DNA of 64,000 bases from Salegentibacter sp. R32 (GTDB lineage: Bacteria > Bacteroidota > Bacteroidia > Flavobacteriales > Flavobacteriaceae). Positions 1,197 to 38,345 of the stretch are shown here, in pieces. Made by a program: the position numbers and the translations under genes. The stretch covers positions 1 to 64,000 of the forward strand of contig NZ_RXOM01000060.1 in assembly GCF_008692195.1 (NCBI RefSeq), in the 5' to 3' direction. The first letter of the stretch is position 1. Each line of letters begins with the position of its first letter. Under the pieces are notes generated by a model, which saw only the letters and a list, made by a program, of their open reading frames with translations, was not told the DNA's origin and did no database searches.

Positions 1197-1672
1197 AGTT
1201 TAGGGTTTAGGGGATAGGAAATAGGAATGAGGTAGGAGGAAAGGAGGATCTTGAAATTTCATAGTTTGTTAGTACTAATTGACTGTTCAAAAATATAAGT
1301 TTCTTTCTAATTTGTTAGTTTTTTTAAATAGATCCCATAATCCAAGCATCAAAAACAATTAACCTGAGTTCCATATAAAAGTTTTTTACAGGCATTTTGG
1401 ATCATTGAGTAAATTTTCAAGGAAAATTTGTATCGAAATGCTACCAAAATGGAAACTTCGATACAAAATCTTTTCCAAAGATTTCACTCAGTCTCCCAAA
1501 TTTTCTTAATCGAATTCAGGTCATTAAACAATAATCGCTTTCCGCTCCCAACTATAGAACACTGCCCACGAACTCAGAACACTTTTTAGGCAAGCGCTAA
1601 TTTTAAAAAAGAAAACTAAAAACTTTCAATTAAATTTTTAGATTTGAAGTTTAAAGATATTCTAAGACTTCC
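1197..1672. other. Repeat-bearing spacer between divergent methyltransferase and MBOAT genes
   Basis: The 476-bp spacer has no supported gene. It is purine-rich at first (1200-1250) and carries hairpin-repeat copy A (1363-1508). The last 80 bp are AT-rich and presumably hold the MBOAT promoter, but no clear TAnnTTTG box could be fixed. Confidence 0.6.
1363..1508 (+). repeat. Dispersed long-hairpin repeat, copy A
   Basis: First of nine related copies. The arms pair in three blocks: GAGTAAA...TTTCACTC (one mismatch), GGAAAA...TTTTCC, and TTTGTATCGAA...TTCGATACAAA. The apical loop contains CTACCAAAATGG, where CCA/TGG can also pair. The preceding segment (CCTGAGTTC, then ATATAAAAGTTTTTTACAGG) is shared with copies B, E and I. 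No protein-coding sense. Confidence 0.8.
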
Positions 1673-3106
1673 ATGCTGTTTAATTCCATCGATTTTGCCA
1701 TCTTCCTGCCCATCGTGTTTACCCTGTATTGGCTGCTAAAGGTGCAACTAAAACTACAAAACTTGTTAATAGCGGTGGCCAGCTACGTGTTTTATGGGAT
1801 GTGGGACTGGCGATTTTTGTTTTTAATCCTTTTTAGCACGGTGGTCGATTATACCATGGGAATCCTTATTGAACGAAATGACTCCCACCAGAAAAGAAAA
1901 CTTTTCCTGTGGATCAGTATATTGGTGAATTTAGGGTTTTTGGGTTATTTTAAATATTCCAACTTCTTTTTAGAGAATTTTGTGAATGCCTTTTCCTTCT
2001 TTGGTCAGGAGTTAAAATTTCGGGGCTTGGAAATAGTCCTTCCGGTAGGGATTAGTTTTTATACCTTTCAAACCCTCAGTTATACCATTGATGTATATCG
2101 GGAAAAGTTAACCCCTACGAAAGATTTTATAGCATTTACGGCTTTTGTGAGTTTCTTTCCGCAATTGGTCGCCGGGCCTATTGAACGGGCTACCCATTTG
2201 TTACCACAGTTTTACAGGAAGCGGAAGTTTGATTATGGTTTGGCAGTCAATGGAATGCGACAGATTTTATGGGGGCTATTTAAAAAAGTGGTCATCGCCG
2301 ATAATTGTGCGCAGTTTGCCAATCAAATATTTAACAATTATGAAGATTACAGTGGGAGTACCTTAATCTTGGGGGCGGTATTTTTTACCTTTCAGATTTA
2401 TGGAGATTTTTCGGGTTATTCAGATATTGCCATTGGAACTTCCCGTCTGTTTGGTTTTGATTTGATGCGGAACTTCGCTTACCCTTATTTCTCTAGGGAT
2501 ATTGCCGAATTTTGGCGTCGCTGGCACATTTCCCTTTCCACTTGGTTCCGGGACTATCTGTATATCCCGTTAGGAGGAAGCCGTGGGGGCACTTGGATGA
2601 AGGTTAGGAACACTTTTATTATCTTTTTGGTCAGTGGGTTTTGGCATGGGGCCAATTGGACTTTTATAGTCTGGGGGGCTTTAAATGCGTTGTACTTTTT
2701 ACCCTTGTTATTGAGAGGAAATAATCGAAATCATTTAGAGGTCGTCGCTTATGATCGAAGATTGCCCTCCTTTAAAGAGCTTTTACAGATAGGAGCAACA
2801 TTTGTACTGACTGTTTTTGCCTGGATCTTTTTTAGGGCGGAGAATTTGCAGCATGCGTTTAATTATATTTATCATATCTTTAGTAAGGATTTATTTTCTA
2901 TTCCTGACATTCGACCTAGTTATCTTATGAGCTTACTATTATTAGTAGTAGTTATTGAGTGGTTAGGGAGAAGGAATCAATTTGCAATTGAAAATCTATT
3001 GATATATTCAAAGTATAGATTTCACTATTTATTTTACTTCGTGTTATGTTACCTGATATTTATTTTTGGAGGTCAAGAACAGGAGTTTATTTATTTTCAA
3101 TTTTAA
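1673..3106 (+). CDS. MBOAT-family membrane-bound O-acyltransferase (AlgI/DltB-like)
   Basis: A 477-residue polytopic membrane protein with the MBOAT signature: WRRWHISLSTWFRDYLYIPL (His285) followed by SGFWHGANWTF with the presumed catalytic His325. The PVGISFYTFQTLSY (124-137) and FVSFFPQLVAGPIER segments are also typical. AlgI-like enzymes pass acetyl groups across the inner membrane to a periplasmic SGNH partner that O-acetylates polysaccharide. The next gene, one base after the stop codon, fits that partner role. The length equals the family norm. Base composition drops near 2.9 kb and the downstream gene is very AT-rich, so the 3' part may have been joined to foreign sequence. Target polymer inferred from context only. 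Confidence 0.9.
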   Translation: MLFNSIDFAIFLPIVFTLYWLLKVQLKLQNLLIAVASYVFYGMWDWRFLFLILFSTVVDYTMGILIERNDSHQKRKLFLWISILVNLGFLGYFKYSNFFLENFVNAFSFFGQELKFRGLEIVLPVGISFYTFQTLSYTIDVYREKLTPTKDFIAFTAFVSFFPQLVAGPIERATHLLPQFYRKRKFDYGLAVNGMRQILWGLFKKVVIADNCAQFANQIFNNYEDYSGSTLILGAVFFTFQIYGDFSGYSDIAIGTSRLFGFDLMRNFAYPYFSRDIAEFWRRWHISLSTWFRDYLYIPLGGSRGGTWMKVRNTFIIFLVSGFWHGANWTFIVWGALNALYFLPLLLRGNNRNHLEVVAYDRRLPSFKELLQIGATFVLTVFAWIFFRAENLQHAFNYIYHIFSKDLFSIPDIRPSYLMSLLLLVVVIEWLGRRNQFAIENLLIYSKYRFHYLFYFVLCYLIFIFGGQEQEFIYFQF

Positions 3107-3112
3107 GTGATA

Positions 3113-4054
3113 ATGAAAAAATTCATATTAAAAATAGTTGTCTTTTTAGTAACATCTCTACTGGTAACCGTAGTAATTAATTTTGCTTTAAATAGTTATA
3201 CGAGATCAAGATCGAAATTTAAAATGGAAAAACAACCTAAATCCATAGTGGTTGGACACTCACATCCAGAATGTGCTTTTAATGATTCTTTGATTCAGGA
3301 TTTCAATAATTTTTCAAATTCCGGAGAAACTTATTTTTATACTTATGTTAAAACAAAAAAAATAATTTTAAATAATGAGTCAATAGAAAATGTTTTTGTA
3401 GAATTTACTAATAACAATATTTATAAAAGTAGAGATTCATTAATTTTTAATGACAAAAATATTAATTATCGCTATCCTAAGTTAGATGCATTTTTAGAAA
3501 AAAAGCAACAAGAAATTTTATTAAAAAATAATATTACAGCTTACTTAAATGCATTATCTCAATCAAAAAAAAAGCAAATATTGCGAATCTTTGAGAGTGA
3601 CTTTAATTTTATTGATGAATTTGGAGGTTATCTTTACCTGAAAAGGTTTAAGACAGATTCATTACTCAATAATATTGGAGAAAGAAAAAATTTAAAGGAA
3701 AAAGCAATTAACTCCTTTCCTTTTTCAAAATTGGATTTATCCTATTTGAGAAAGATCATTGAGTTTTGTGAAAAGAATCATAGAAAAGTTTACTTAATTC
3801 GTTCTCCTCAACACCCTAGAAATAGAACAATGAAGAATGAAATTGCTTTTCAATATATTTTACATGAAGAATTCAATGACGTAGAGTTTTTAGATTTTGT
3901 AAATTTTCCTTTGAAAAATTCCGAATATGGAGATCTAGGACATTTAAATTATTTGGGTGCTGAGAAGTTTTCGAGTTGGGTAGATCTATTGCTGAAAAAT
4001 GGTTTGTTAAGAGAGAGAGATAAACAAAGTTTTATCAATTATCAAATGGAATAA
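3113..4054 (+). CDS. SGNH/DltD-like partner of the O-acyltransferase (putative)
   Basis: About 313 residues with an N-terminal membrane anchor (MKKFILKIVVFLVTSLLV) and an extracytoplasmic domain. IVVGHSHPE near residue 46 sits where SGNH/DltD-type proteins carry the GDS-like nucleophile block, and DLGHLNYLGAEKFS near the C-terminus resembles the Asp-x-x-His block. Position right after an MBOAT gene supports a role in O-acetylation. A GTG at 3107 directly follows the upstream stop; the ATG at 3113 is preferred because it begins at the lysine-rich signal. Very AT-rich (9 of 60 bases G+C at 3361-3420), unlike the start of its neighbour (27 of 60 at 2581-2640), suggesting transfer. Similarity is motif-level only. 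Confidence 0.6.
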   Translation: MKKFILKIVVFLVTSLLVTVVINFALNSYTRSRSKFKMEKQPKSIVVGHSHPECAFNDSLIQDFNNFSNSGETYFYTYVKTKKIILNNESIENVFVEFTNNNIYKSRDSLIFNDKNINYRYPKLDAFLEKKQQEILLKNNITAYLNALSQSKKKQILRIFESDFNFIDEFGGYLYLKRFKTDSLLNNIGERKNLKEKAINSFPFSKLDLSYLRKIIEFCEKNHRKVYLIRSPQHPRNRTMKNEIAFQYILHEEFNDVEFLDFVNFPLKNSEYGDLGHLNYLGAEKFSSWVDLLLKNGLLRERDKQSFINYQME

Positions 4055-4262
4055 TTAAACACTCTATTTTTCTGATAGTTTATGCTTTAAATAGCCCTGA
4101 TCTAATTTTTATCTAGGGATGACTTAAAGACTACTCTTTAATGGAAAATTGAAACACCAAATTCCGAAACCCATGAGCTAGTCACTACTTCGAGCTTCCA
4201 GCTTTCCACTTATGGTAGACTGACAAATCCAAGCAACAAAATCTAACCTCCAATCACCAGTA

Positions 4263-4404
4263 AACTGAGTTCTATATAAAAGTTTTTTACAGGCATTTTG
4301 GATCATGGAGTGAATTTTTAAGTAAAATTTGTATCGAAATACTACCAAAATAGAAACTTAGATACAAAATCTTTTGCAAAGATTTCACTCAGTCTCCGAA
4401 ATTT
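4263..4404 (+). repeat. Dispersed long-hairpin repeat, copy B
   Basis: A full-length copy. The middle stem block reads GTAAAA...TTTTGC where copies A, E and I have GGAAAA...TTTTCC, so the pairing is kept as a wobble pair. The inner block is worn (GTATCGAAA against TTAGATAC). It ends ...CGAAATTTGAACTT; AGTTC at the left end and GAACT at the right end form a short terminal inverted repeat. Confidence 0.75.
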
Positions 4405-4606
4405 GAACTTCTTGCTTCCCACTTCGTACTGTATACTGTAACTTGTACACTGTATACTACCCTCTCACCACTACTTCCTGCTCCCAACTAACCATTCGCT
4501 TACTTGTCATTCCAAGGTATCGAGAAATCTGTGGAAGTTGAAATTGAAATCAAACTTCCAACAGGAAGATCCTTCGCTTCCCTGTATGGTACGCTGGATG
4601 ATAGTT

Positions 4607-4710
4607 AAATGAATACTTACAAGTTAAATTTGTATCGCAATGCTACCCCCATGGAAACTTCGATACAAAATCTTTTGCAAAGATTTCACTCAGTCCCCGA
4701 AATTTGAACT
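4607..4710 (+). repeat. Dispersed long-hairpin repeat, copy C (core only)
   Basis: Core of the hairpin element inside the tandem array. The left end begins AAATGAATACTTAC instead of the usual ACAGGCATTTTGG segment. The inner arms GTATCG...CGATAC are intact. Confidence 0.7.
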
Positions 4711-4924
4711 TCCTGCTTCTCACTTCGTACTGTATACTGTAACTTGTAAACTGTATACTACCCTCTCTCCACTAACCTCTCACCACTACTTCCTGCTCCC
4801 AACTAACCACTCGCTTACTTGTCATTCCAAGGTATCGAGAAATCTGTGGAAGTTGAAATTGAAATCGAACTTCCAACAGGAAGATCCTTCGCTTCCCTGT
4901 GTGGTACGCTGGATAATAGTTAAA

Positions 4925-5026
4925 TGAATACTTACAAGTTAAATTTGTATCACAATGCTACCCACATGGAAACTTCGGTACAAAATTTTTTCCAAAGATT
5001 TTACTCCGTCTCCGAAATTTAAACTT
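4925..5026 (+). repeat. Dispersed long-hairpin repeat, copy D (core only)
   Basis: Third array copy. The inner arms have drifted (GTATCACAA against TTCGGTAC), leaving wobble pairs and mismatches, so this copy looks older or unselected. Confidence 0.65.
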
Positions 5027-5109
5027 CCTGCTCCCCGCTCCCAACTTCCTCCCCACTGCCTACTGACCACTGTATATAATCCCAACTTTCCGACACCGCT
5101 CGACGTCTT

Positions 5110-6975
5110 TTACTCCATCTTCGCTGAAAGTTCAAACCAGCGTTCGGTTTTTAGGTCGATCTCATCCATGATGCCTTGGAGGTATTGTGATTTTTTATTG
5201 ATTTCTTCCTCCGAAAGTTCTGCGAGAAATTCTTGTTGCACGTTTTCTTTCTTTTTTTCCAGTTGCGCAATCTCTTTTTCCAGTCGCTTATATTCTTTCT
5301 GTTCGTTATAAGATAATTTATGGTCGCCGTTCGAAGACTTCCAATCCTTTTTGGCTTTGCTTTCTTTTTTTTCAGTAGGGCCGGCTTCCGCCGGTTTGCT
5401 TTTATCATAAGCCCTAAAATCGGAATAATTGCCGGGAAAATCTTCTATCACTCCATTCCCGCGGAAGACAAAAAGGTGGTCTACAATTTTATCCATAAAA
5501 TACCGGTCGTGGGAAACCACGATCAGGCATCCCGGAAAATCCAATAAGAAATTTTCTAACACATTAAGGGTAACAATGTCTAAATCGTTAGTCGGTTCAT
5601 CCAGGATAAGAAAATTAGGGTTTTGAATAAGCACCGTGCATAAATACAGTCTTTTGCGTTCGCCCCCACTTAATTTCTCCACATAATCGTATTGCTTCTT
5701 ACGGTCAAATAAGAAGCGCTCCAAGAGTTGTTGTGCCGAAATTTGCCTTCCTTTTTTTAGCGGAATATAGTCCCCAAATTCACGGATGACGTCAATTACC
5801 TTTTGCACCTCCTTGACGGGAATTCCTTGTTGGGTGTAATAGCCAAATTTTACCGTTTCCCCCATCACCAGTTTCCCGTGATCCGGAGGTAGATGGCCGG
5901 TAAGGATATTTAAAAAAGTAGATTTCCCCGTCCCATTTTTTCCAATGATTCCTAAGCGCTCCCCGGGTTGAAAATTATAGTTCAACTTATCCAACAAAAC
6001 TTTATCTTCAAAGCTTTTGGAAATATGGTGGAGTTCCACGATTTTATTGCCCAGGCGTTCCATATTAATTTCCAGCTGTACTTCGTGTTCTTTCCTACGT
6101 TGGGAAGCTTTCGCTTTTATTTCCGTAAAATCGTCAATTCGCGATTTCGATTTGGAGGTACGGGCTTTGGGTTGGCGCCGCATCCAATCCAATTCTTTTT
6201 TATAAAGCTGTTGCGCCTTTTCGGTATTGGTTTTTTCAATTTCCACCCGGGCCTCTTTTTTATCTAAATAATAACTATAGTTTCCTTTATAACTATAAAG
6301 CACGCCGTCTTCCAGTTCTAAAATTTCGTTGCACACCCGTTCTAAAAAATAGCGGTCGTGCGTGACCATCAATAAGGTAAGGTCTTCCTTGGTAAAAAAT
6401 TCTTCCAACCACTCAATCATTTCCAGGTCCAGGTGGTTGGTAGGTTCATCTAAGATCAGCAGGTCTGGATGATCCAGTAAGCGGGTGGCCAAGGCCAAAC
6501 GCTTTTGCTGTCCACCGGACAATAACTTGACTTTTTGGTCCAGTTTTTCTAACTTTAATTTGGAAAGGATTTGTTTATAGGTAGTTTCAAAATCCCAGGC
6601 CTGTTTGGCTTCCATCAAGTCAAAAGCCTTTTGCATGCGTTCCGTATCTTCAGGATGCTGTAAGGCTTTTTCGTATTGCTTGATGATGTTTAATACCTCA
6701 TTGTCCGAAGCGAAGATGGTTTCTTCTACCGTTAAATTTTCGTTAAGGTCGGGTGCTTGCGAGAGAAAGGAAATTTTGATATGATTTCGATAATTTATTT
6801 CACCCTCGTCAGGACGGTCTTGACCGGATAAAAGTTGGAGCAGGGAGGTTTTGCCCGTGCCGTTCTTGGCGATAAGTCCTATCTTTTGCCCGGCATTAAT
6901 GCCAAAGGAAAGGTCTTGGAAGATGATCCGTTCGCCATAGGCTTTGGAAATATGTTCAATGGATGCGTAATTCAA
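5110..6975 (-). CDS. ABC-F family ATPase (Uup/ribosome-associated type)
   Basis: 621 residues with two ATP-binding cassettes and no membrane segments. Walker A: AKNGTGKT (36-43) and GKNGTGKS (345-352). Signatures: LSGGQQKRL (152-160) and LSGGERKRL (435-443). Walker B: LLILDEPTNHLDL (172-184) and FLILDEPTNDLDI (455-467). A linker at about 240-305 joins them, and the lysine/glutamate-rich C-terminus (about 545-615) should be a coiled coil, as in Uup. ABC-F proteins act on the ribosome, not in transport. The only sensible start is TTG at 6975 (rev. comp. TTGAATTACGCATCC), since no ATG precedes the first beta strand. It faces against the neighbouring polysaccharide genes and is probably unrelated to them. 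Confidence 0.93.
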   Translation of the reverse strand: MNYASIEHISKAYGERIIFQDLSFGINAGQKIGLIAKNGTGKTSLLQLLSGQDRPDEGEINYRNHIKISFLSQAPDLNENLTVEETIFASDNEVLNIIKQYEKALQHPEDTERMQKAFDLMEAKQAWDFETTYKQILSKLKLEKLDQKVKLLSGGQQKRLALATRLLDHPDLLILDEPTNHLDLEMIEWLEEFFTKEDLTLLMVTHDRYFLERVCNEILELEDGVLYSYKGNYSYYLDKKEARVEIEKTNTEKAQQLYKKELDWMRRQPKARTSKSKSRIDDFTEIKAKASQRRKEHEVQLEINMERLGNKIVELHHISKSFEDKVLLDKLNYNFQPGERLGIIGKNGTGKSTFLNILTGHLPPDHGKLVMGETVKFGYYTQQGIPVKEVQKVIDVIREFGDYIPLKKGRQISAQQLLERFLFDRKKQYDYVEKLSGGERKRLYLCTVLIQNPNFLILDEPTNDLDIVTLNVLENFLLDFPGCLIVVSHDRYFMDKIVDHLFVFRGNGVIEDFPGNYSDFRAYDKSKPAEAGPTEKKESKAKKDWKSSNGDHKLSYNEQKEYKRLEKEIAQLEKKKENVQQEFLAELSEEEINKKSQYLQGIMDEIDLKTERWFELSAKME

Positions 6976-7052
6976 TTTCTTAATTTTTTTACAAAATAAA
7001 GATAAATAGTTGACTTATGGAGAGGGAAGTTTTTTTATTAGTATTGAAAAAC

Positions 7053-7060
7053 TATATTTG
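7053..7060 (+). promoter_or_regulatory. Bacteroidota -7 box upstream of the wza-wzc operon
   Basis: TATATTTG matches TAnnTTTG exactly, 27 bp before the ATG at 7087. A TTTT at 7030-7033 lies 19 bp upstream, near the TTTG -33 consensus. It is the only good box in the short intergenic region and probably drives the export operon. Confidence 0.5.
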
Positions 7061-7086
7061 TTGCTCATTTTTAGAGAAATTAATCG

Positions 7087-7884
7087 ATGAAAAATAATTG
7101 TCTGTTCGTATTGCTGTTGTTGATCATAGCTTGTAGTTCCTGTATTAGTACTGAGAAGCTTACCTACCTGCAACAACACGAACAACAATTAGATAGCTTG
7201 ATCGCCGTACAGCGGGTACAAAAACCTTATCGGGTACAGGTGAACGATTTGTTAAGTATCCGGATCAAAGCCTTGGACCAGGAATTGGTGGGCATGTTTA
7301 ACCCCATTGACGAAGGTAACCCCAATGCGACCGGTGAAGAACGCTTGTATTACGATGGTTTTCGGGTAGATCCCCACGGAAATGTACGTATTCCTACCCT
7401 AGGGGAAATGAATGTTTTGGGCTTTACCACGGAAGAAATCCGGAAAAAAATTGAAGCCAAGTTATTAAAAGATTATTTTCGGGAAGAAGCCAATATTTTT
7501 GTGACGGTCAAATTGGCGGGGATCCGCTATACCACCATTGGGGAAATTGGGGCCGGCAGCCAGATTATTTATAAAGACGAAGTGAGCATTATGGAAGCCA
7601 TCGCGAATGCGGGCGATATCGAAATGACCGGCGATCGCACCGATGTGATGATCTTACGCCAATACCCCGGGGGCCATAAAGTGCATCATATCGATTTGAC
7701 CGACATCGATGCGGTGCAATCCCCGTATTACTACATCCAACCCAACGATTTAATTATGGTCAAACCCTTACCCCAAAAATCTTTAGGGACCGGCGAAACC
7801 GGCTTAGGAACCTTTACAACTATAGCCGCAGTTATAAGTATGATTTCTACCTTAGTCTTATTATCAATTAGAATTAATCAATAA
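7087..7884 (+). CDS. wza: Polysaccharide export outer-membrane lipoprotein (Wza/OPX family)
   Basis: 265 residues. A lipoprotein signal peptide ends at a Cys in the IIACSSC region (residues 15-19). The Poly_export domain follows (YRVQVNDLLSIRIKALDQELVGMF around 38-62, then VRIPTLGEMNVLGFTTEEIRKKIEAKL) and an SLBB-type segment (ITYK-like YTTIGEIGAGSQIIYKDEVS). The C-terminus has a hydrophobic segment (FTTIAAVISMISTLVLLSIRI) that could span the outer membrane, as the Wza helical barrel does. It forms the exit channel with the Wzc-like protein encoded next, whose ATG overlaps this gene's stop (TAATG). First gene of the export operon and GC-richer than the cassettes around it. Confidence 0.92.
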   Translation: MKNNCLFVLLLLIIACSSCISTEKLTYLQQHEQQLDSLIAVQRVQKPYRVQVNDLLSIRIKALDQELVGMFNPIDEGNPNATGEERLYYDGFRVDPHGNVRIPTLGEMNVLGFTTEEIRKKIEAKLLKDYFREEANIFVTVKLAGIRYTTIGEIGAGSQIIYKDEVSIMEAIANAGDIEMTGDRTDVMILRQYPGGHKVHHIDLTDIDAVQSPYYYIQPNDLIMVKPLPQKSLGTGETGLGTFTTIAAVISMISTLVLLSIRINQ

Positions 7885-13451: not shown

Positions 13452-13856
13452 GGGAGTAACAGGTGAGTGGCTGAGTGATGAGTGGTAAGTTTATTGAGAT
13501 TGAAATTTAATTTTAGTCTCTTCGAGTGGTTGAAAGGAATAAAGTGGAGTTCAATTGTATCGAGAAGCTGAGAGGTAAATAGTAAGTTATTTGAAAAAGA
13601 TAATTAAAAAATAACTGTCATCCAAAACATAACACAGTGAAGCGAAGGATCTTTTTGTTGAATTTCGATTTCAACTTCAACAGATTCCTCCCTGTCTAGC
13701 AACAGGCAAGCTTGAAACGAAAGAAGTGTCACTTCGCAGTGATTAGTGATTTTAGCGAAGCGATAGCAGAGCTAAAATTGTATCGAGAAGCACTAATTTT
13801 TTTTCTTTAATAAGAAAATATAAAACAGAAAATAAAACGAATAATCAGCAGGATTG
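13452..13856. other. Repeat-filled spacer splitting the Wzm and Wzt genes
   Basis: 405 bp without a gene. It holds a GTATCGAGAAGC motif at about 13558-13569, an inverted copy of the GTCATCC/AAGCGAAGGATC module (about 13617-13690), and the ATTTTAGC...GCTAAAAT element at 13749-13791. The final 60 bp are A/T-rich and may carry a promoter for the wzt cassette. Confidence 0.6.
13749..13791 (+). repeat. Second dispersed repeat family (ATTTTAGC hairpin + GTATCGAGAAGC), copy 1
   Basis: ATTTTAGC (13749-13756) and GCTAAAAT (13771-13778) form a perfect 8-bp stem around GAAGCGATAGCAGA, followed directly by TGTATCGAGAAGC. A degenerate second copy with the same tail is at 21802-21847. Similar intergenic repeats are common in flavobacterial genomes. 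Confidence 0.65.
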
Positions 13857-21922: not shown

Positions 21923-22088
21923 AAGTTCAAATTTCGGAGACTGAGTGAAATCTTTGGAAAAGATTTTATATCGAAGTTTCCATTTTGGTAGCATTTCGAT
22001 ACAAATTTTCCTTGAAAATTCACTCAATGACCCAAAATGCCTGCCTGCCGGCAGGCAGGCCTGTAAAAAACTTTTATATGGAACTGAG
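21923..22088 (-). repeat. Dispersed long-hairpin repeat, copy E, with nested palindrome
   Basis: The only copy in reverse orientation. All three stem blocks are kept (GGAAAA/TTTTCC; the inner block has one change, TTCGATATAAA). A 22-bp GCCTGCC... palindrome (22039-22060) sits in the ACAGGC|ATTTTGG joint, the same place as in copy I. Confidence 0.8.
22039..22060. repeat. REP-like 22-bp palindrome, copy 1
   Basis: The perfect palindrome core CCTGCCTGCCGGCAGGCAGG extends by one G and C. It is nested in hairpin copy E. Identical palindromes lie at 38113-38132 (20 bp) and 38211-38232 (22 bp), and a half-copy GCCTGCCTGCC is at 21241. Confidence 0.85.
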
Positions 22089-22105
22089 CTTACTAGTTAT
22101 TAGGT

Positions 22106-22275: not shown

Positions 22276-22653
22276 GCTCAGGAGGACAGTAGAAAGTGGC
22301 AAAACAGTAGAGAGTTAATAGTTAATGGGATTTAGAGTTTGACTTTTGGAGTTTGGGTTCTTGGAATTTTGGTGTTCAGTAGGAAGTAGGCAGTAGGTAG
22401 TAGGCAGTAGGTAGTAGGAAGCGTGAAGAAGTTATTGATGATTAGTTAATAGGATTGGGAGTTTGGAATTTCAGTATACAGTATACAGTATTCAGTAAGC
22501 CAAAGGCTTCAGCGGTTTGGAATTTGTTTTTTCTTTTTTCCATTTTTTGGTCTTTAATTTTCTCTCAGATTATGAAAGTTAAATAAAACAAAAATTCATA
22601 CCTTGCTCCCTTAATTTTATGATTTTAGCGGAAAATCCGGCAAAAAAGTTTTA

Positions 22654-30378: not shown

Positions 30379-30467
30379 TGAGTAATTAGTATTAAGTAAT
30401 GAGTAGTTAGTGCTGAGCGGATGATTTTGAAATTTGTTGGCAGATAGCAGTTGCGGGTGAGTGGGGT

Positions 30468-30488: not shown

Positions 30489-30548
30489 GATAAGAGAATT
30501 CCTTGCGAGCTCGAAATAAAAATTTATTTTTAAAGTAAAATTAATATA

Positions 30549-31655
30549 TTGGAATCTAATCAGAAATTTTTATTGATTACTTCAGAGTTTCCTCCGCAAC
30601 CGGGGGGGATTGGGAACCATGCTTGGCATTTGGCACGCTCGTTTCAAGCCAATGGAATCGATGTGCAGGTCGTTTCTGATCGACGTTCCGGGGAAGGAAA
30701 GGAAGAGCAAGGATTTGATATGTCTCAGGATTTTGAAGTCGTTCGTATTCCGCGAAAGAAGCTTATTTTCTTAAGTTATCTTGATCGGATCTTCAAATCC
30801 TTTCAGCTGGCAAAAAAAAATGATATCGTTTTGCTTTCCGGGAAATTTTCTATTTGGGTAGGAGGGCTACTAAGTTTATTGCTAAATAAAAAATACGTGG
30901 CGGTTTTGCACGGGAGTGAGGTATTGTTACCTTCTAAAATTCAACGAAGATTTACCAACTTTTGTCTGCAACGCTTTGATCAATTAGTTGCAGTGTCAAA
31001 TTATACCAAAAGTTTGATCAATCATTTAAAGTTGAAAATTACAGTCATTCCCAACGGCTTTGAAATATCTGAATTTGCTAGTCAACCTCGAACTTTATCA
31101 CCAGACTTTAAATTGAATTTAGTGACGGTGGGGAATGTGACTCTGCGAAAAGGTCAACATAACATCATTGAGGCCTTGCCGGAAATCAAAAAGAAATATC
31201 CGCAGGTAAAGTATCATATGGTTGGAATACCAACAATGAAAGATAGCTTAATAGGTTTAGCTGAAAATTTAAATGTAGCGGAGCATGTAGTGTTTCACGG
31301 AAAAGTTTCCGAAGAAGGGAAACTTAAGCTATTAAAGCAAGCAACTATTTTTATGATGCTGAGTGAACATACGGCGGAAGGCGATGTGGAAGGGTTTGGA
31401 ATCGCTATTCTCGAAGCAAATGCACTGGGGGTTCCGGGAATTGGAGCTAGGGGATGTGGGATTGAAGACGCCATTGCTCATCAACAATCGGGGATATTAG
31501 TCAATCATAAAAATAAAGAAGAAATTGTTGATGCTATTGATACTATTGTAGGGAATTATCCTCAATTTAGTAAAAATGCTATTGAGTGGACACAACATTT
31601 TACGTGGGATAAGATTATTCAACAGTATTTGGAAGTGTTGGAGAAGCTGAAGTGA
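30549..31655 (+). CDS. GT4 family glycosyltransferase
   Basis: 368 residues. FLLITSEFPPQPGGIGNHAW (7-26) is the GT4 acceptor-side loop. The donor domain has LNLVTVGNVTLRKGQHNIIE (about 189-208), YHMVGIPTMKDSL and the E-x7-E motif in DVEGFGIAILEANALGVPGI with ARGCGIEDAI. The start is TTG at 30549 (TTGGAATCTAATCAG); no in-frame ATG precedes the conserved first strand. It is followed by a spacer with two hairpin repeats. Donor sugar unknown; the family is PimB/mannosyltransferase-like. Confidence 0.88.
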   Translation: MESNQKFLLITSEFPPQPGGIGNHAWHLARSFQANGIDVQVVSDRRSGEGKEEQGFDMSQDFEVVRIPRKKLIFLSYLDRIFKSFQLAKKNDIVLLSGKFSIWVGGLLSLLLNKKYVAVLHGSEVLLPSKIQRRFTNFCLQRFDQLVAVSNYTKSLINHLKLKITVIPNGFEISEFASQPRTLSPDFKLNLVTVGNVTLRKGQHNIIEALPEIKKKYPQVKYHMVGIPTMKDSLIGLAENLNVAEHVVFHGKVSEEGKLKLLKQATIFMMLSEHTAEGDVEGFGIAILEANALGVPGIGARGCGIEDAIAHQQSGILVNHKNKEEIVDAIDTIVGNYPQFSKNAIEWTQHFTWDKIIQQYLEVLEKLK

Positions 31656-31750
31656 TGAGTAGGGGTTAGCAGTCGCGGAGGAGAAGCTGAAATTGAAATT
31701 GAAACCGAAATTGAAGTTGGTTCACGGTCAACATACCTAAATGGAAGCAA

Positions 31751-31888
31751 TATATGATTATTTTTTACAAGCATTTTGGGCATTGAGTGGATTTTTAAGA
31801 AAAATTTGTATCGAAATGCCACCAAAATGGAAACTTCGATACAAAATCTTTTGCAAAGATTTCACTCAGTCTCCGGAATTTTCTTATA
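31751..31888 (+). repeat. Dispersed long-hairpin repeat, copy F
   Basis: Inner arms TTTGTATCGAA...TTCGATACAAA are perfect. The left part (TTTTTTACAAGCATTTTGGG) carries A instead of G in the ACAGGC joint. The middle block has partly decayed. Confidence 0.75.
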
Positions 31889-31908
31889 GCGAAAGATTCT
31901 GATTTAGA

Positions 31909-32054
31909 CCTGAGTTTGATATAAAAGTTTTTTCCCGGCAAATTAGTTCATGGAATGAATTTTCCAAGAAAGTCGGTATCTAAATGCTACCAAAAAAGAA
32001 GCTTCGGTACAAAATCTTTCTCTAAGATTTCACTCAGTTTTCGAAATTTTCTTA
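31909..32054 (+). repeat. Dispersed long-hairpin repeat, copy G (diverged)
   Basis: Lies 20 bp after copy F and in the same direction. Recognisable by CCTGAGTTTGATATAAAAGT, ATGCTACCAAAAAAGAAGCT and GATTTCACTCAG, but the inner arms are altered (GGTATCTAA against TTCGGTAC). Confidence 0.7.
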
Positions 32055-32241
32055 CATCGAAAGATTTTAATTTAAAATTATTTGAAGTTAAAAAAATTAA
32101 TCTACGTACAATCTTCTAGTCTCCCAATCACAAATCCTCGGATACCATTATAATAATTAGTATACTTGCATCCATGAAGGGATTTGGATAAGGGTTGATC
32201 GATCGTCTATTGAAATTGCCTTGTCCAGAAAAGATTTAGTT

Positions 32242-33357
32242 ATGAAGCTAGCCATTATTTCACATACGGAACATTACCGCACGGAAGACGGGGGAATCGT
32301 TGGTTGGGGCCCTACCATCACTGAAATCAATCATCTTATTGATCGGTTTGATAAGATTTATCATGTGGCTTTTTTTTATGAAGAAGAGCCGCCTCCCAGT
32401 TCTATCCCTTATACTTCAAATAATATTGAATTTGTACCTTTACCACCTTCCGGGGGAAAAACCTTGGGCAGTAAGTTAAGCGTGTTGACGAACCTACCGA
32501 AGACCTTGGCAATTGTAAAAAATGTGCTTCGTAAAGTGGATGCGTTTCAGTTCCGGGCGCCGGTAGGCATAGGGGTCTATTTGATTCCTTATTTAAACCG
32601 AACGAAAAAAAAGGGTTGGTTTAAATATGCCGGCAATTGGGCGCAGGAGAACCCCCCACTGGGATATGCCTTACAGCGTAAAATGCTGATGAACCAAGAC
32701 CGTACCGTTACCATTAACGGAAAATGGCCTAACCAACCCAAACAGTGCCTAACTTTTGAAAATCCTTGTTTAACTTTGCAGGAAAGGGAAGAGGGAAAGA
32801 ATCTTATGGAAAGCAAAGCTTACCGGCCTAGATTTACCTTTTGCTTTGTAGGGCGACTGGAAGATGAAAAAGGCGTACAACGAATTTTGGATGCTTTTGC
32901 TGCTATAAAAAACTTACCGGATGGGATAGGGGAAGTGCATTTAATTGGGAATGGTACTAAACGAAAGCAATATGAGAAACAGGTAAGCCGCCAACAATTA
33001 CCCATCCGTTTTCATGGGTTTTTAAGCCGAACGGAAGTGTTTGATATTTATAAACAGTCTCATTTCCTACTTTTACCGAGTACCGCTTCGGAGGGCTTCC
33101 CGAAGGTGATCGCCGAGGCCATGAACTATGGCTGTATTCCTATAGTATCCGATGTTTCCAGTATTGGACAGTACATTCATTCTGCGAACGGATTTATCGT
33201 GAATCCTACCACCGCCGAAAAGCTAGTTGATATTCTAAGGGAGCTGCAAGAGTTGGACAAGAACTTGTTGAAAGCGAAGGCTGCCCAAGCCTATCAAGTA
33301 GCTGCAAATTTCACCTTTGAACATTATAATGAACGCATCATAACAGAGATTTTATAA
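32242..33357 (+). CDS. GT4 family glycosyltransferase
   Basis: About 371 residues starting MKLAIISHTEHYRTEDGGIV; a TTG seven codons upstream (32221) is possible but adds nothing conserved. The donor domain has FTFCFVGRLEDEKGVQRILD (about 198-217), EVHLIGNGTKRKQYEK, IRFHGFLSRTEVFDIYKQSH and the E-x7-E motif in TASEGFPKVIAEAMNYGCIP. Bounded on both sides by hairpin-repeat spacers, so it stands as a single-gene module. Sugar specificity unknown. Confidence 0.88.
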   Translation: MKLAIISHTEHYRTEDGGIVGWGPTITEINHLIDRFDKIYHVAFFYEEEPPPSSIPYTSNNIEFVPLPPSGGKTLGSKLSVLTNLPKTLAIVKNVLRKVDAFQFRAPVGIGVYLIPYLNRTKKKGWFKYAGNWAQENPPLGYALQRKMLMNQDRTVTINGKWPNQPKQCLTFENPCLTLQEREEGKNLMESKAYRPRFTFCFVGRLEDEKGVQRILDAFAAIKNLPDGIGEVHLIGNGTKRKQYEKQVSRQQLPIRFHGFLSRTEVFDIYKQSHFLLLPSTASEGFPKVIAEAMNYGCIPIVSDVSSIGQYIHSANGFIVNPTTAEKLVDILRELQELDKNLLKAKAAQAYQVAANFTFEHYNERIITEIL

Positions 33358-34340
33358 ATACCCACCTGGCCTCACTAAGGGGAGGTGTCATCCGAGGTAT
33401 CAAGGAATCTGTTGAACTTGAAACCGAAATTGAACTTTAAATCGAACTTTCGATTTAAAAGATGCTTATTACCTCTGGGTTCAATATAGAAATTTTTGGG
33501 AATGGAGTGAATTTTCCAAAAAAAAACAAAATGCTACCAACATGGAAACTTCGGTTCAAAATCTTTTGCAAAGATTTCACTCCGTCTTCCGAATTTTCTT
33601 GCTTCTAATTCAGATTATTTAAAATTCTCGAATTTGAAAAACATCCATCCCACCCTTAGGTCATCCCTCCTTGGAAAGGAGGAGGACAGTTGATGAATTA
33701 GGATCCTTCGACAGACTTACCCAAGAGGGGGTGGCAGGTCAAATATTAAATGCTGAAAGGAATAATTCCAAAGCTATTAGGCTAGCTATGATCTGAGGTA
33801 TTGAGGAACCTGTTGAACTTGAAGCTGAAATTGAAATCATATTCACATTCAAAATATGCTTGACTAGGTTCTGCATGGCCGTTTAATTTGTATCCTAAAA
33901 TCCCAAGAACCAAATCCCAAATTCCAAAAGTTAAATTCCAAATCCCATTAATATTAATCAATAACTGCTTCCCGCTTCGTACTTCTCGTCCACTGAACAC
34001 TGCATACTGTAACTTGTAGACTGAAATTCCAAGAACAAAGCTCAAATTCCAACTTTAGAAGCTCTTAGCTTTTACCTACTGTACCCTGTAACTTGTAAAC
34101 TGTATACTGCCTACTAAACACTGAATCCTGAAATCTCTACAAACAAACGTACAACGTACAACTCCTCACTACCCACTATTCACTTGAATCCTATAATCTC
34201 AACTTCACAGGTGTTCTGCTAAAATTAAACAAAAGCTTTTTCTTATCTCTAAAAAATATAGTATGTTGCCGGTTAGAAGCAAAACCTAATTCATCATTAA
34301 AAAAAATAGTATAAAGGCAGGGCATTCACATCGTAAGCAG
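33358..34340. other. 0.98-kb gene-free spacer with repeats
   Basis: Holds GTCATCCGAGGTATCAAGGA (about 33388) and ATGATCTGAGGTATTGAGGA (about 33788) copies of the third spacer module, hairpin copy H, CTTCGACAGACTTACC, and long low-complexity runs of the AACTTGTAAACTGTATACTG type (about 33950-34200). Several short open frames are by-products. The last 50 bp (from 34290) may belong to the ligase gene; see that entry. Confidence 0.65.
33472..33600 (+). repeat. Dispersed long-hairpin repeat, copy H (diverged)
   Basis: The left inner arm is lost (AAAAAACAAAATGCTACC) but the loop and right half are clear: ATGCTACCAACATGGAAACT and AAAGATTTCACTCCGTCTTC. It can no longer form the full hairpin. Confidence 0.65.
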
Positions 34341-35699
34341 TTGTGGGCTATTCTCTTTCACGTGGGGCTGGGGGTGCTGGCCAGTAAATTCCGGCCCTTG
34401 ATGCTGGCCTATGTGCCTTTGGTCTTGCTGTATTTTGGCTGGCAAATTGTACAGACCAAAAACAAAACAGTGGCGGTGCTGGCCGCGGCGGCTTATATCG
34501 CGGGAGCGGAGGTGTTTTTTAGAATGACCAAGGGCTATCTGTTTTATGAAACCGGCAAGTATGCGGTGATCCTGTTGATGCTCGTGGGAATGTTTTACCG
34601 CGGCTTCCAAAAAAAGTCCTATCCCTATTTGCTTTATTTTGTATTGCTCATTCCGGGAATATTGGTGACCATTAACGTGATTGGCCTGGAAGAAAAATTC
34701 AGGCAAACCATTCTTTTTAATTTAAGCGGGCCAATGGCCTTGATAGCTGGAGCGCTGTTTTGCTACGGACGGAAGATCCGTTTTAAAGACTTATTGAAAA
34801 TTTTAGATTATATGGTCTATCCTATCATAGCGATGACCATTTATGTGTTTTTATATACTCCGGGCGGGGATATTGCCGATATTGCGACTTCAGCGGCTTC
34901 CAATCCTGCCCTTTCCGGAGGCTATGGCCCAAATCAGGTCTCCACGGTTCTGGGCTTGGGGGTGTTTATCTTATATACGCGTTTTTTGATTCCTTATAAA
35001 AATAAATGGATCCATCTGCTCATGATGTTCTTTTTGGTGGCCATGGCCTATCGCGCTTTGTTAACCTTTTCCCGGGGAGGCGTCTTGGTGGCGATCTTGA
35101 TGGCGGCCGCCTTTACCTTTTTTGTCTATACCCGTACCGGGATAAAAACCAAAACCAAGGTCACCCTGAAGTTATTGGGCACCTTGGGCATCACCATCGG
35201 GATCTGGTTTTTTACCTTGCTGCAAACCGGGGGCATGTTGGGGTATCGCTATGAAAATAAGGACTCTATTGGCCGGGAAAAAGAAAGCATCACCACGGGG
35301 AGGCTGGAATTGTTATTGGCTGAATACCAAGCTTTTTTAGATCATCCCATGGTTGGAGTGGGAGTGGGGAAGGTAGATGATTACCACCGGGAAATCCTGG
35401 GGGTCGATTTGCCTACGCATAATGAAATTAGCCGGATGTTTTCAGAACACGGCATATTTGGGATTGTGGCTTTATTAATTTTAATAGGCTCCCCCTTATT
35501 AACTAAACTGCAAGGAAGAAAAAACATTTACTTTTTCCCCTTATTTATATTTTGGTTTTTAACGGTCTCCCATTCTTCCATGCGAATTGCCTTACCGGGC
35601 TATATGTATGGGCTTTCCCTCTTAAGTTTACACTATGGAAAAAAAACAAAAAAGAAACCACCTCATGAAAATTCTTTATCTGGGCAACCGGTTGGCTAA
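34341..35699 (+). CDS. O-antigen ligase/polymerase family membrane protein (WaaL/Wzy-like)
   Basis: At least 452 residues, about 11-12 predicted membrane helices. The long extracytoplasmic loop and the ligase-type motif lie in SIGREKESITTGRLELLLAE and FLDHPMVGVGVGKVDDYHRE, then DLPTHNEISRMFSEHGIFGI, matching the Wzy_C pattern (R in loop, H-N-E). It either polymerises repeat units or links glycan to lipid. The first usable standard start is TTG at 34341. The frame is open upstream to 34290, and ATT at 34296 would give a lysine-rich N-terminus that fits a membrane protein better. Stop overlaps the start of the next GT by 35 bp. Confidence 0.87.
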   Translation: MWAILFHVGLGVLASKFRPLMLAYVPLVLLYFGWQIVQTKNKTVAVLAAAAYIAGAEVFFRMTKGYLFYETGKYAVILLMLVGMFYRGFQKKSYPYLLYFVLLIPGILVTINVIGLEEKFRQTILFNLSGPMALIAGALFCYGRKIRFKDLLKILDYMVYPIIAMTIYVFLYTPGGDIADIATSAASNPALSGGYGPNQVSTVLGLGVFILYTRFLIPYKNKWIHLLMMFFLVAMAYRALLTFSRGGVLVAILMAAAFTFFVYTRTGIKTKTKVTLKLLGTLGITIGIWFFTLLQTGGMLGYRYENKDSIGREKESITTGRLELLLAEYQAFLDHPMVGVGVGKVDDYHREILGVDLPTHNEISRMFSEHGIFGIVALLILIGSPLLTKLQGRKNIYFFPLFIFWFLTVSHSSMRIALPGYMYGLSLLSLHYGKKTKKKPPHENSLSGQPVG

Positions 35700-36672
35700 A
35701 CACGGAAAAACCCCAACCGGCATCGATTTTATGGTTCCCCGTCTACGCGGTTTGTCGTATGAAGTGAAGGCGGTGTCCAGTAAAAAAAATAAGGTGTTAC
35801 GTTTACTGGAGATGTGGACAACTATTGTTAAAGAGTGGAACACGATAGATTATATACTTATTGATACCTATAGCACGCTTAATTTTTGGTATGCGGTGAC
35901 TTGCGCAAAACTAGCCCGAAGGTTTTCTATTCCCTACGTCTGTATTCTTCGAGGAGGGGATTTACCTCATCGAATAACGAAGAGTAGAAGGAGAAGTGAT
36001 GAGCTTTTTAAAAATGCGCACACCAACATAGGTTTGTCTAAGTACTTGGTCAATACTTTTCAGGACTTAGGCTATGAGAATATTACCTACATTGAAAATA
36101 CCATTGAGTTAAAAAACTATTCTTTTCAGCTAAAAAGTTTGGAATACCCTAAACTCTTATGGGTACGCTCGTTTAGTGAGATTTATAACCCCCAATTGGC
36201 GATTCTGATTTTAGAAGAAATTAAAAAAGATTTTCCTCAAGCTGAATTATGCATGGTAGGCCCGGATAAAGATGGCAGTTTGGAAAAATGTAAACAACTC
36301 GCAAAGCGTAAACAGCTTTCGGTAAAATTTACGGGAAAGCTTTCCAAAGAAGAGTGGATAAAACTTTCTAAAGATTATAACCTATTTATCAATACCACCA
36401 ATTTTGATAATACCCCTATTAGCGTGATAGAAGCCATGGCCTTGGGCTTACCGGTGATCTCTACCAATGTGGGAGGATTACCTTTTTTAATTGCCCATGA
36501 AAAGGATGGGATTTTAGTAGAGAAAGAGCAAGTAGCTCCTTTTATCCGGGAAATTAAGATCTTAGTAACCCACCCGGAGCGTGCCTATCAATTAGCTGCC
36601 AAGGCCCGAAAAAAGGTGGAGCAATTTGATTGGGAGGTGGTCAAAGAAAAATGGAAGAGGGTGTTGCAATAA
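35665..36672 (+). CDS. GT4 family glycosyltransferase
   Basis: About 335 residues from ATG 35665 (MKILYLGNRLAKHGKTPTGI); an ATG at 35635 would add a lysine-rich ten residues overlapping the ligase. The donor domain has KLLWVRSFSEIYNPQLAILI, AELCMVGPDKDGSLEKCK, VKFTGKLSKEEWIKLSKDYN and the E-x7-E motif variant in FDNTPISVIEAMALGLPVIS with TNVGGLPFLI. Usually found next to the ligase in flavobacterial exopolysaccharide loci. 39 bp before the initiating transferase gene, so co-transcribed. Confidence 0.88.
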   Translation: MKILYLGNRLAKHGKTPTGIDFMVPRLRGLSYEVKAVSSKKNKVLRLLEMWTTIVKEWNTIDYILIDTYSTLNFWYAVTCAKLARRFSIPYVCILRGGDLPHRITKSRRRSDELFKNAHTNIGLSKYLVNTFQDLGYENITYIENTIELKNYSFQLKSLEYPKLLWVRSFSEIYNPQLAILILEEIKKDFPQAELCMVGPDKDGSLEKCKQLAKRKQLSVKFTGKLSKEEWIKLSKDYNLFINTTNFDNTPISVIEAMALGLPVISTNVGGLPFLIAHEKDGILVEKEQVAPFIREIKILVTHPERAYQLAAKARKKVEQFDWEVVKEKWKRVLQ

Positions 36673-36711
36673 AAGAAAAAAACTATCTTAGCGAATTGAA
36701 AATTAAAGGGG

Positions 36712-38097
36712 ATGGCTAAAAAATCTAGAATACATTTTGAAATATCTGAGCGGAAGGTACTGCTCAGGATCTTAGATGTAGTTTTAGTCTTGGGAGGCTT
36801 ACAGCTGGTGAGTCATTTTTTGGATTTTGATTATTTTAAAGTGACCGATGCCCATTGGGCCTGGATTATTGTGTTGGCGGTTTACCTCACCATTTTCTGT
36901 ACCATTTTTGAATTGTACAACCTCCAAAAAACGAATAACTATACGAAGGTTTTTAAAAATCTTACCTTAGCGTGTTCGATGACGGTGTTATTCTACCTGC
37001 TCACTCCTTTTTATACCCCTAATCTTCCTGCCAATCGGTTTCAAATTGTCGTTTTTTATTTTACCTTATTGGGAAGCTTAACGCTGTGGCGTTTTGCTTA
37101 TATTCGGTTTATTTCTTCGCCCCGCTTTCATAAAAAGGTGATTGTCGTAGGAGACTCTTTAAATATTACTCAATTAGCCCAAGAATTACAAGCGGCCGAT
37201 CCCCATTATTTGGTCAGCGCTTATATAGATACGAACCCCAACACGCCCCCGGCCAAGGATATTCCTCAGTTAGCCTTGGAAGAGCTAAAAGATTTTATAG
37301 AAAGGGAGATGGTAGGGGAAATTGTGGTCTCTACGGCGTACAGTTCTAAATTAGACAAGCAACTCTATGAACTATTAATAGACTTATTGGAAGTAGGTTT
37401 TCCTATCCGGGAATACACGCAAGTTTATGAAGAATTAAACAGTAAAATCCCTGTGGATCATTTACGGGAAGATTTCTATAAATATTTTCCTTTTAGTAGA
37501 AGTAATCACAATAAACTGTATTTATTTTTTCATCGCTTGATGGATATTGCTTGTGCCGTCATCGGTATTCTTAGTGGTTCCTTATTTGTTCCTTTTGTAT
37601 TGGTAGGAAATATGCTGGGCAACAAAGGGCCGTTGTTTTATTCCCAAGTGAGGGTAGGAAGGCATGGAAAAGAGTTTAAGATTTTAAAGTTGAGAACCAT
37701 GGTGACCGATGCGGAGTCGAAAGGAGCCCAGTGGGCGCAGGCAAACGATACTAGAATTACCAAATTCGGAAAGTTTTTGCGAAAGACCCGCTTGGATGAA
37801 GTTCCTCAATTCTATAATGTATTGAAAGGAGAGATGAGTATGATTGGGCCACGTCCTGAACGCCCGGTATTTGTGAAAGAACTGGCTGAGGAAATTCCGT
37901 TTTATGAAATTAGGCACGTGATTAAACCGGGGCTCACCGGTTGGGCACAAGTAAGTATTAGCTACGGCTCTTCCGTAGAAGATAGTTTACATAAACTTCA
38001 GTACGATTTATATTACATTAAAAGAAGAAATCCTTTTCTAGATCTTCGTATTGTTTTAAAAACCCTGAGCACGGTTATTTTCTTTAGAGGGCAGTAG
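36712..38097 (+). CDS. wcaJ: Polyprenyl-phosphate sugar-1-phosphate transferase (WcaJ-like, initiating)
   Basis: 461 residues. Four or five N-terminal membrane helices, then a CoA-binding-like Rossmann domain (KKVIVVGDSLNITQLAQEL, about 140-158), a further membrane hairpin at about 275-300, and the catalytic bacterial sugar-transferase domain: FKILKLRTMVTDAESKGA (about 322-339), FLRKTRLDEVPQFYNVLKGE, MSMIGPRPERPVF and KPGLTGWAQV. It starts each repeat unit by loading a sugar-1-phosphate onto undecaprenyl phosphate at the inner membrane. Its position at the distal end, opposite wza/wzc, brackets the whole locus. Specificity (Glc, Gal or HexNAc) not readable. Confidence 0.92.
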   Translation: MAKKSRIHFEISERKVLLRILDVVLVLGGLQLVSHFLDFDYFKVTDAHWAWIIVLAVYLTIFCTIFELYNLQKTNNYTKVFKNLTLACSMTVLFYLLTPFYTPNLPANRFQIVVFYFTLLGSLTLWRFAYIRFISSPRFHKKVIVVGDSLNITQLAQELQAADPHYLVSAYIDTNPNTPPAKDIPQLALEELKDFIEREMVGEIVVSTAYSSKLDKQLYELLIDLLEVGFPIREYTQVYEELNSKIPVDHLREDFYKYFPFSRSNHNKLYLFFHRLMDIACAVIGILSGSLFVPFVLVGNMLGNKGPLFYSQVRVGRHGKEFKILKLRTMVTDAESKGAQWAQANDTRITKFGKFLRKTRLDEVPQFYNVLKGEMSMIGPRPERPVFVKELAEEIPFYEIRHVIKPGLTGWAQVSISYGSSVEDSLHKLQYDLYYIKRRNPFLDLRIVLKTLSTVIFFRGQ

Positions 38098-38112
38098 AAA
38101 ACCCCTCCCGAC

Positions 38113-38132
38113 CCTGCCTGCCGGCAGGCAGG
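38113..38132. repeat. REP-like palindrome, copy 2
   Basis: CCTGCCTGCCGGCAGGCAGG, a perfect 20-bp palindrome 16 bp after the wcaJ-like stop, free-standing (not inside a hairpin repeat). Confidence 0.85.
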
Positions 38133-38183
38133 CTCCCCCAAGGGGAGGAGGTGTCATCTAAAATGAAAGCCGGAATACTGAAA

Positions 38184-38345
38184 CCTGAGTTTTCTATAAA
38201 TGTTTTACAGGCCTGCCTGCCGGCAGGCAGGCATTTGGGACATGGAATGAATTTTCAAGGAAAATTTGTATCGAAATGCTACCAACATGGAAACTTCGAT
38301 ACAAAATCTTTTCCAAAGATTTCACTCAGTCTCCGAAATTTGAAC
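38184..38345 (+). repeat. Dispersed long-hairpin repeat, copy I, with nested palindrome
   Basis: All three stem blocks are intact (GAATGAA/TTCACTC with one mismatch; GGAAAA/TTTTCC; TTTGTATCGAA/TTCGATACAAA). The nested palindrome at 38211-38232 lies in the ACAG|GC|ATTTGGG joint exactly as in copy E. Confidence 0.8.
38211..38232. repeat. REP-like palindrome, copy 3
   Basis: 22-bp perfect palindrome (G + 20-bp core + C) nested in hairpin copy I. Confidence 0.85.

Follow-up and report, generated by a model that had tools for sequence, protein, structure and literature searches.

A probable IS982-type miniature element carrying an inverted pair of REP-like hairpin modules in Salegentibacter sp. 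R32

The described systems closest to the element reported here concern either miniature inverted-repeat transposable elements (MITEs) or repetitive extragenic palindromes (REPs). MITECca01 and MITECca02 are IS982-derived MITEs of the Cardinium endosymbiont of Oedothorax gibbosus, according to the passages of that report devoted to them (PMC9769881). CGTC REPs are described, in the passages on that group, as lacking a dedicated transposase and as being present in Bacteroidetes (PMC3733652). Atypical structures have also been reported beside the REP-associated tyrosine transposases (RAYTs) of Bacteroidetes, in the sections dealing with their subclass 2.6 (PMC6006769). The element considered here is an intergenic repeat found in nine copies in a 64,000-nucleotide stretch of Salegentibacter sp. 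R32, hereafter the window, which corresponds to positions 1-64000 of contig C55 of a 4.08-Mb draft genome in 68 contigs (labelled G000). It is best read, with a probability of roughly 0.8, as an IS982-type MITE that was moved in trans in the past and that carries a pair of REP-like hairpin modules.

The carrier is defined by its ends. Short end repeats AGTTC/GAACT had been noticed before in this DNA; they are present, as part of longer terminal inverted repeats (TIRs), AACCTGAGTTCGAT and ATCGAACTCAGGTT, which bring the full element to about 163 bp. The ends AACCTGAGTTCGAT(ATAA) resemble those of IS982-family insertion sequences (ISs), and copies aligned with their flanks display the termini AACCTGAGTTCGATATAA and TTAGATCGAACTCAGGTT; the MITE ends differ from the IS982 ends by one base (C for G). 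A search with the 14-base end led to an IS of 1,056 bp in the same genome (G000:C1:303861-304916), ending in AACGTGAGTTCGATATAA and GTCGAACTCACGTT, whose 18-nt ends show 0 and 2 mismatches to AACGTGAGTTCGATATAA and which has TAGTTTA on either side. Its gene is broken: the last piece matches PF13612 (2e-36) and the IS982 model NF033520 (5.2e-35, 121.2 bits for a cut-off of 130), the first piece gives no match at 1e-3, and in a DNA scan the gene pieces score 148.0 bits, over the cut-off, and 67.7 bits. Contig C34 of this genome carries an IS remnant whose ends match less well, with 3 and 4 mismatches, and one such end is found in the congener Mesonia oceanica (G002:C9). Relatives of the last gene piece, at E 1e-30 or better, occur in 11 of 199 family genomes, G000 included. 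Among the 15 loci listed, frames of at least 300 aa accompanied by both ends within 4 mismatches are present in L105, L106, L109, and L110. The ends of these open relatives from other genera bear 0 and 2 mismatches in L105 (313-aa frame), at most 3 each in L109 and L110, and 4 and 4 in L106; L112 (309 aa) has other ends.

Traces of insertion accompany these ends. Exact direct repeats of 5-7 bp border 8 of the 15 full copies tested (TATTTA, TAATTA, TTCTA, TAATA, TAGTTTA, TATATTA, TTTTA, and TACTA). An empty site, of the kind envisaged in the earlier note on this DNA, is clear in one paralogous case: the M. oceanica copy L033 interrupts a repeat that is uninterrupted in L120 and L191, with about 5 bases doubled and one mismatch. 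The further candidates L009 and L054 are less clear. The element is non-coding, with no transposase frame inside, and both its size and its multiple copies (34 places in G000, 31 in M. oceanica) are those of a MITE, for which the limit lies below about 300 bp. The MITE-like nature that the earlier note had proposed is supported by these features. In the proposed mechanism, an IS982-type transposase would recognise in trans the ends of about 18 bp (AAC[C/G]TGAGTTCGATATAA), and the 163-bp unit would be inserted into A+T-rich intergenic DNA with the duplication of a few bases. The family would probably be immobile in this genome today and decaying, because the matching IS982 copies found there are broken.

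Several observations weigh against this reading. The G000 draft genome of 68 contigs yielded no intact IS982 bearing these ends, and the only intact IS982 that it contains (C6) lacks them even when up to 4 mismatches are allowed. Seven of the 15 full copies are without an exact direct repeat, and if the outermost T and A are part of the element ends, as they may be, the true repeats would measure 3-5 bp. The only clear empty site (L033) is paralogous; at the one locus where an orthologous empty site was looked for (L126), the coding flank matches in congeners and the intergenic DNA does not align. The right end is absent from five of the nine window copies (4263, 4604, 4917, 21929, and 38183). 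Among the 69 collapsed sequences of the enlarged module set presented below, 22 box pairs are non-hairpins. Finally, over 18 full copies the core diverges by 7.2% vs 16.2% and 17.6% for the ends, being lower in 16 of the 18 (p 7.6e-5), which is unexpected for a plain decaying MITE. Low core divergence is not taken as proof of function, because the profile search favours copies with a good core.

This profile (R1) is a sequence-only profile built from 27 element copies. In G000 it yields 43 matches representing 34 places, once 8 opposite-strand matches and one copy split into two halves are taken into account; the weakest (e.g. C61:8055, 25.5 bits) may be due to chance. Twenty-five of these places lie outside the window, and the genes adjoining some copies include dnaK and those for a serine dehydratase, a dihydroxyacetone kinase, and an arginase, with ftsK and phoH within about 2 kb. 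The family had been thought to be confined to the polysaccharide locus of the window, a view that does not survive this count. In M. oceanica (G002), 33 matches represent 31 places, and 4 of the 16 genomes of the genus sample have an R1 match (G000, G002, G015 with 5, and G005 with 1). By blastn, 3 of 40 genomes match, namely G000 itself, G002, and G022, the match in G022 being limited to a GC-rich palindrome. An exact 25-base pattern was found as 13 stretches in 84,980 genomes, five in Zunongwangia pacifica, seven in M. oceanica, and one in a Lacinutrix bin. The latter was rejected as a copy of the element, as little of it matches apart from the short pattern (55% across the element). Viral contigs had no exact match to the 25-base pattern, and plasmids and phages had no blastn match to one 171-base copy. 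In Z. pacifica, the copy at L054 2798-3473 is flanked on both sides by similar units of about 160 nt, possibly a tandem array.

Short elements of another make-up have IS982-type ends (AACGTGAATTCGATATAA) and other interiors in G005 (L091 1046-1424, L095 925-1127, L096 998-1235, L098 852-1090, and L092 5361-5657). More than one MITE family uses this IS982 type, since these elements combine such ends with different interiors.

In the window, R1 finds nine strong places (1362, 4263, 4604, 4917, 21929 in reverse, 31750, 31908, 33478, and 38183; E 7.8e-42 to 2.6e-21). They are the same nine copies that the earlier note had listed as an intergenic family, and all nine do lie between frames. The other ten window matches are 8 opposite-strand readings of the same palindromes and 2 weak ones (E 0.47 and 0.56). 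With at most 1 mismatch, TTTGTATCGAA occurs 15 times in the window vs 2.61 over 100 shuffles (standard deviation 1.83, largest 8). The left part of the window is a polysaccharide locus because of the Pfam matches of ten frames, which cover a chain-length type ATPase, a UDP-sugar dehydrogenase, an ABC transporter, an asparagine synthase, four glycosyltransferases, a Wzy/O-antigen ligase, and a sugar transferase. The copies and the related features of this locus are the following.

1361-1522, plus strand: copy A, full length (R1 137.3 bits, E 7.8e-42), with left TIR 1361-1374, right TIR 1509-1522, and module boxes 1406-1437 (+) and 1457-1490 (-); an exact target repeat was looked for at its ends and none was found.
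4262-4404, plus strand: copy B (R1 122.7 bits), left TIR 4262-4275, with the shared non-element junction GAACTTC.TGCTTC in place of a right TIR.
4430-5044: 300-nt tandem duplication (family D3), units 4430-4729 and 4745-5044, 315 nt from start to start, 90% identity.
4604-4711, plus strand: copy C (R1 77.6 bits), both ends lost, within unit 1 of this duplication.
4917-5020, plus strand: copy D (R1 71.3 bits), both ends lost, within unit 2 of this duplication.
13523-13564, plus strand: single module (CGAGTG..TGTATCGAG, C-G type) that belongs to none of the MITE copies.
21929-22091, minus strand: copy E (R1 123.8 bits), left TIR 22078-22091, right TIR replaced by the shared junction.
31750-31893, plus strand: copy F (R1 119.9 bits), with boxes of module 1 at 31784-31815 (+) and of module 2 at 31835-31868 (-).
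31907-32061, plus strand: copy G (R1 115.1 bits), left TIR 31907-31920, tandem neighbour of copy F with a shared tail.
33478-33615, plus strand: copy H (R1 95.5 bits), diverged, box B of module 1 damaged.
38182-38341, plus strand: copy I (R1 114.7 bits), left TIR 38182-38195 (diverged), right TIR replaced by the shared junction.

With nine of the 34 places within 37 kb, the locus is enriched in copies (binomial p 1.8e-11). Once local duplicates are collapsed, about 4 of 29 insertions remain in it (p 1.3e-4), so that the excess is real but smaller than it first appeared. The excess is due in part to local duplication, because five copies (4263, 4604, 4917, 21929 in reverse, and 38183) share one non-element 3' junction, GAAATTTGAACTTC.TGCTTC, and two others, 31750 and 31908, form a tandem pair with a related tail. 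This junction is present in none of the non-window copies aligned. Copies C and D were doubled by the 300-nt duplication at 4430-5044. The copies of the polysaccharide locus were multiplied further by local duplication, in which they took part as any homologous repeats may.

Other repeats are found in the window. A 20-bp GC-rich palindrome, CCTGCCTGCCGGCAGGCAGG, is carried by copy E (22039-22060) and copy I (38211-38232) and also by L003, L031, and L033. Its position in the left arm is identical in these five copies from two species, and it looks as though it had been inserted or exchanged at a single point; G022 and the 38115 region of the window contain it as well. The long intergenic gaps of the polysaccharide locus are filled with low-complexity repeats of the kinds TACTGTATACTGTAACTTGTAAACTG and CCAAATCCCAAAAGTCAAACTCC (4412-4795, 22313-22497, 33983-34130, and 38349-38461). 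Further right, two direct repeats of 139 nt each, 99% identical (50719-50857 and 51380-51518), flank a 188-aa frame.

As to the interior of the element, the earlier note had drawn one long hairpin with three paired blocks around a CTACCA..ATGG loop, and a second copy in which GTAAAA/TTTTGC kept the pairing by wobble. Blocks, loop, and variant are all present in the sequence. Wobble maintains the pairing at a single site in a single copy; when the 27 copies are taken together, the long-range pairs of the core show 4 compensated double changes vs a permuted mean of 3.05 (p 0.35). RNAalifold on the same 27 copies gives only -4.49 kcal/mol and 21 pairs and chooses local folds; the seven double changes at one pair that form its best case may go back to a single inherited change. 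A long hairpin over the whole core was rejected as a conserved structure, its covariation being no better than permuted. What stands of the structured module is a pair of local hairpins.

Indeed, the core is made of two inverted modules, each built as outer stem, TGAGTG, variable hairpin, TGTATCGAA, and outer stem. In contig C16 of M. oceanica, the nine places found correspond mainly to the left half, which folds alone. These places (L131 and L132) share one orientation, lie among mixed accessory genes (Fic, GNAT, epimerase, penicillin-binding, and DUF4917), and sit within larger shared repeats. The remote relatives of G005 and G015 retain both boxes, TGAGTG and TGTATCGAA, exactly or in a close variant, with a hairpin that differs in its letters. 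The box pattern TGAGTG-N(8-32)-TGTATCGAA gives 130 matches in 38 of the 199 family genomes, 22 of them in G000, vs 10 for a control consisting of the pattern read backwards. In genomes with several matches, the intervening stretch is mostly a hairpin with its own letters (e.g. TCCGCCggttGGCGGA, TTGCTGCgtgaGCAGCAA, CCAAATCtgtgATTTGG, and GTTGCaaaGCAAC); many single matches do not form one. The pattern is also present in 44 of 395 genomes sampled across the class, with 110 matches (28 in the own family) vs 33 for the control. Hairpins are found outside the family in G263 (11), G280 (11), G493 (12), G580 (4), and a few others, and most single matches look like chance.

Covariation is plain only once other genera are compared. 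When 101 distinct modules are collapsed to 51 dissimilar ones, the five outermost pairs of the hairpin are Watson-Crick in 85% of cases vs 33% with permuted arms (maximum of 2000 permutations, 45%), and all four pair types occur at each position. The six outer-stem pairs are Watson-Crick in 62% vs 34% when permuted, with a value of 0.92 beside the boxes falling to 0.24. Adding the class loci gives 119 distinct sequences, of which 96 are hairpins, and 69 collapsed ones, of which 47 are. In 100 distinct hairpins, the base preceding GAGTG and the one following TGTATCGA pair as T-A in 72 cases and as C-G in 20, and are mismatched in 8. Once freed to vary, GA opposite GA is retained by 72 of 78 and the G-C that comes next by 72 of 75, most of the loci having been found by these very boxes. 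The module may be read as a stem whose GA/GA core is closed by a pair that covaries; the G.A pairing would be of the sheared type. Folding as single-stranded DNA gives z < -4 for 2 of 5 modules, the modules of copy F having -1.9 and -1.2.

Relatives of the module take other forms. A shorter hairpin, TGAGCGNAGTCGAA, has the same TGAG/TCGAA letters and occurs 23 times in G000, 19 times in G002, and in 7 of 9 genomes tested (G203 among them), with a reversed control of 0; it may belong to the same superfamily. At G137:C1:200513-201779 (L228), five exact modules within 1.3 kb are interleaved with opposite modules bearing TGTACCGAA.

Such a covarying, mostly intergenic module could be a structured RNA (cis-regulator, terminator, or small RNA) selected after insertion, the mobility of the element being incidental. 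The strength of the covariation and the lower divergence of the core in 16 of the 18 full copies are in line with this, as are the hairpin arms, which, taken over all distinct modules in the TGAGTG orientation, have 11 G.T vs 2 A.C mismatches (6 vs 2 when collapsed), and the location of 32 of the 37 modules of 13 other loci with their midpoint outside frames of at least 80 aa. However, the Mesonia-type copies to which the window copies belong have no strand bias (31 G.T and 36 A.C single changes), and the two modules are oppositely oriented, so that one strand cannot favour both. Neither a common neighbour gene nor a common orientation was seen, and Rfam 15 has no match in the window at the gathering threshold, nor at E<=1 in window 1300-5100, L137, L140, and L143. 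Selection as an RNA is unlikely. A REPIN, i.e. an inverted REP pair moved by a RAYT (Y1) transposase, would also account for short palindromic intergenic units and for the window modules, which form an inverted pair at a distance of 20 nt. L226, L227, and L231 likewise have inverted modules within 200 nt of each other. RAYT-like genes are present in 78 of 199 genomes, and 8 of the 11 genomes with at least 3 box matches have them. Yet modules that neighbour each other within 200 nt outside the window stand in the same orientation (6 cases) as often as in opposite ones (5), and the unit is bounded by IS982-type ends. Moreover, RAYT as partner of the module was rejected: none of 30 RAYT loci contains a stemmed module, a loose scan reveals no enrichment (40 matches in 102 kb of RAYT loci vs 22 in 45 kb of IS982 loci), and R1 matches none of the six Y1/RAYT loci of the genus. 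As for a REP tag, the fixed letters lie inside the module, the outer stem begins with GGT in 25 of 69 collapsed sequences, and no GTAG or CGTC tag was seen in the module lists. A REPIN is quite improbable.

The earlier note had also raised the possibility of recombination sites between gene cassettes, attC-like or used by another site-specific recombinase. Fixed boxes around a variable hairpin would resemble the anatomy of attC; the nine single modules of M. oceanica C16 lie in one orientation among accessory genes, nine copies occupy 37 kb of the polysaccharide locus, and a module cluster is found in a glycosyltransferase locus of G157. Against this stand the single copies beside housekeeping genes, the MITE-type direct repeats at several copies, the clusters of G219 and G203, which hold other functions, and the mixed orientation elsewhere. 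No direct support emerged for such recombination sites, site-specific recombinases and integron integrases not having been searched for, and this proposal is barely plausible.

The IS982-type MITE with its module pair remains the preferred reading, and its cargo is an inverted pair of hairpin modules with GA opposite GA beside a T-A or C-G pair. The module is wider than the MITE, since many Flavobacteriaceae, as well as some genomes from outside the family, have single modules or other arrangements. It behaves like a REP-type palindromic repeat and would be recognised, possibly by a protein or a nuclease, through its shape and two short boxes. A broader reading is put forward tentatively, as somewhat less than an even chance. 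According to it, the modules would form an undescribed superfamily of structured repeats extending beyond Flavobacteriaceae, copied or edited by an unlinked enzyme that recognises shape, and one inverted pair would have been captured by an IS982 MITE. Its members would be defined by two fixed boxes, a GA/GA core closed by a covarying pair, and hairpin arms replaced wholesale yet still pairing. No published description of the TGAGTG/TGTATCGAA module was found in the open-licence literature searched, which does not amount to its absence from print. The cargo matters more than the carrier, as its letters vary while pairing is kept and the boxes stay fixed, which points to recognition by structure. 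A single short pattern suffices to search for the module, and it raises a testable question, namely which protein or process maintains the pairing as the letters change. In addition, the copies are markers of earlier duplication within a surface-polysaccharide locus.

Compared with known REP systems, the module shares with GTAG and CGTC REPs its nature of short palindromic intergenic repeat, with many families having different stems and with dimers, as these are presented in the passages concerned (PMC3733652). It differs from them by two internal boxes placed between the outer stem and a variable inner hairpin, instead of the unpaired terminal tag given in that account (PMC3733652). The structures of RAYT subclass 2.6 likewise come from Bacteroidetes and are non-canonical hairpins with genomic copies, according to the sections describing them (PMC6006769). 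By the same description they flank RAYT genes (PMC6006769), whereas the stemmed module is absent from the 30 RAYT loci tested; the comparison is one of descriptions, and identity is possible. With the IS982 family (NF033520, PF13612), the element of the window has in common its terminal inverted repeats and the direct repeats at the target, and it differs by the lack of a transposase gene and by an interior unrelated to the IS. MITECca01 and MITECca02 are likewise short, non-coding, multicopy, and mostly intergenic, with IS982-family-like ends and a Bacteroidota host, as stated in the passages on these elements (PMC9769881). According to these passages, they measure about 240 bp and have an intact parent, ISCca4, in the genome, whereas the element of the window measures about 163 bp and its parent copies were found broken (PMC9769881). 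The same passages mention no hairpin modules, whereas the interior of the window element is an inverted pair of them (PMC9769881). The carrier is another IS982-derived miniature element in Bacteroidota, and the element is classified as a new member of the IS982-type MITEs with an unusual cargo.

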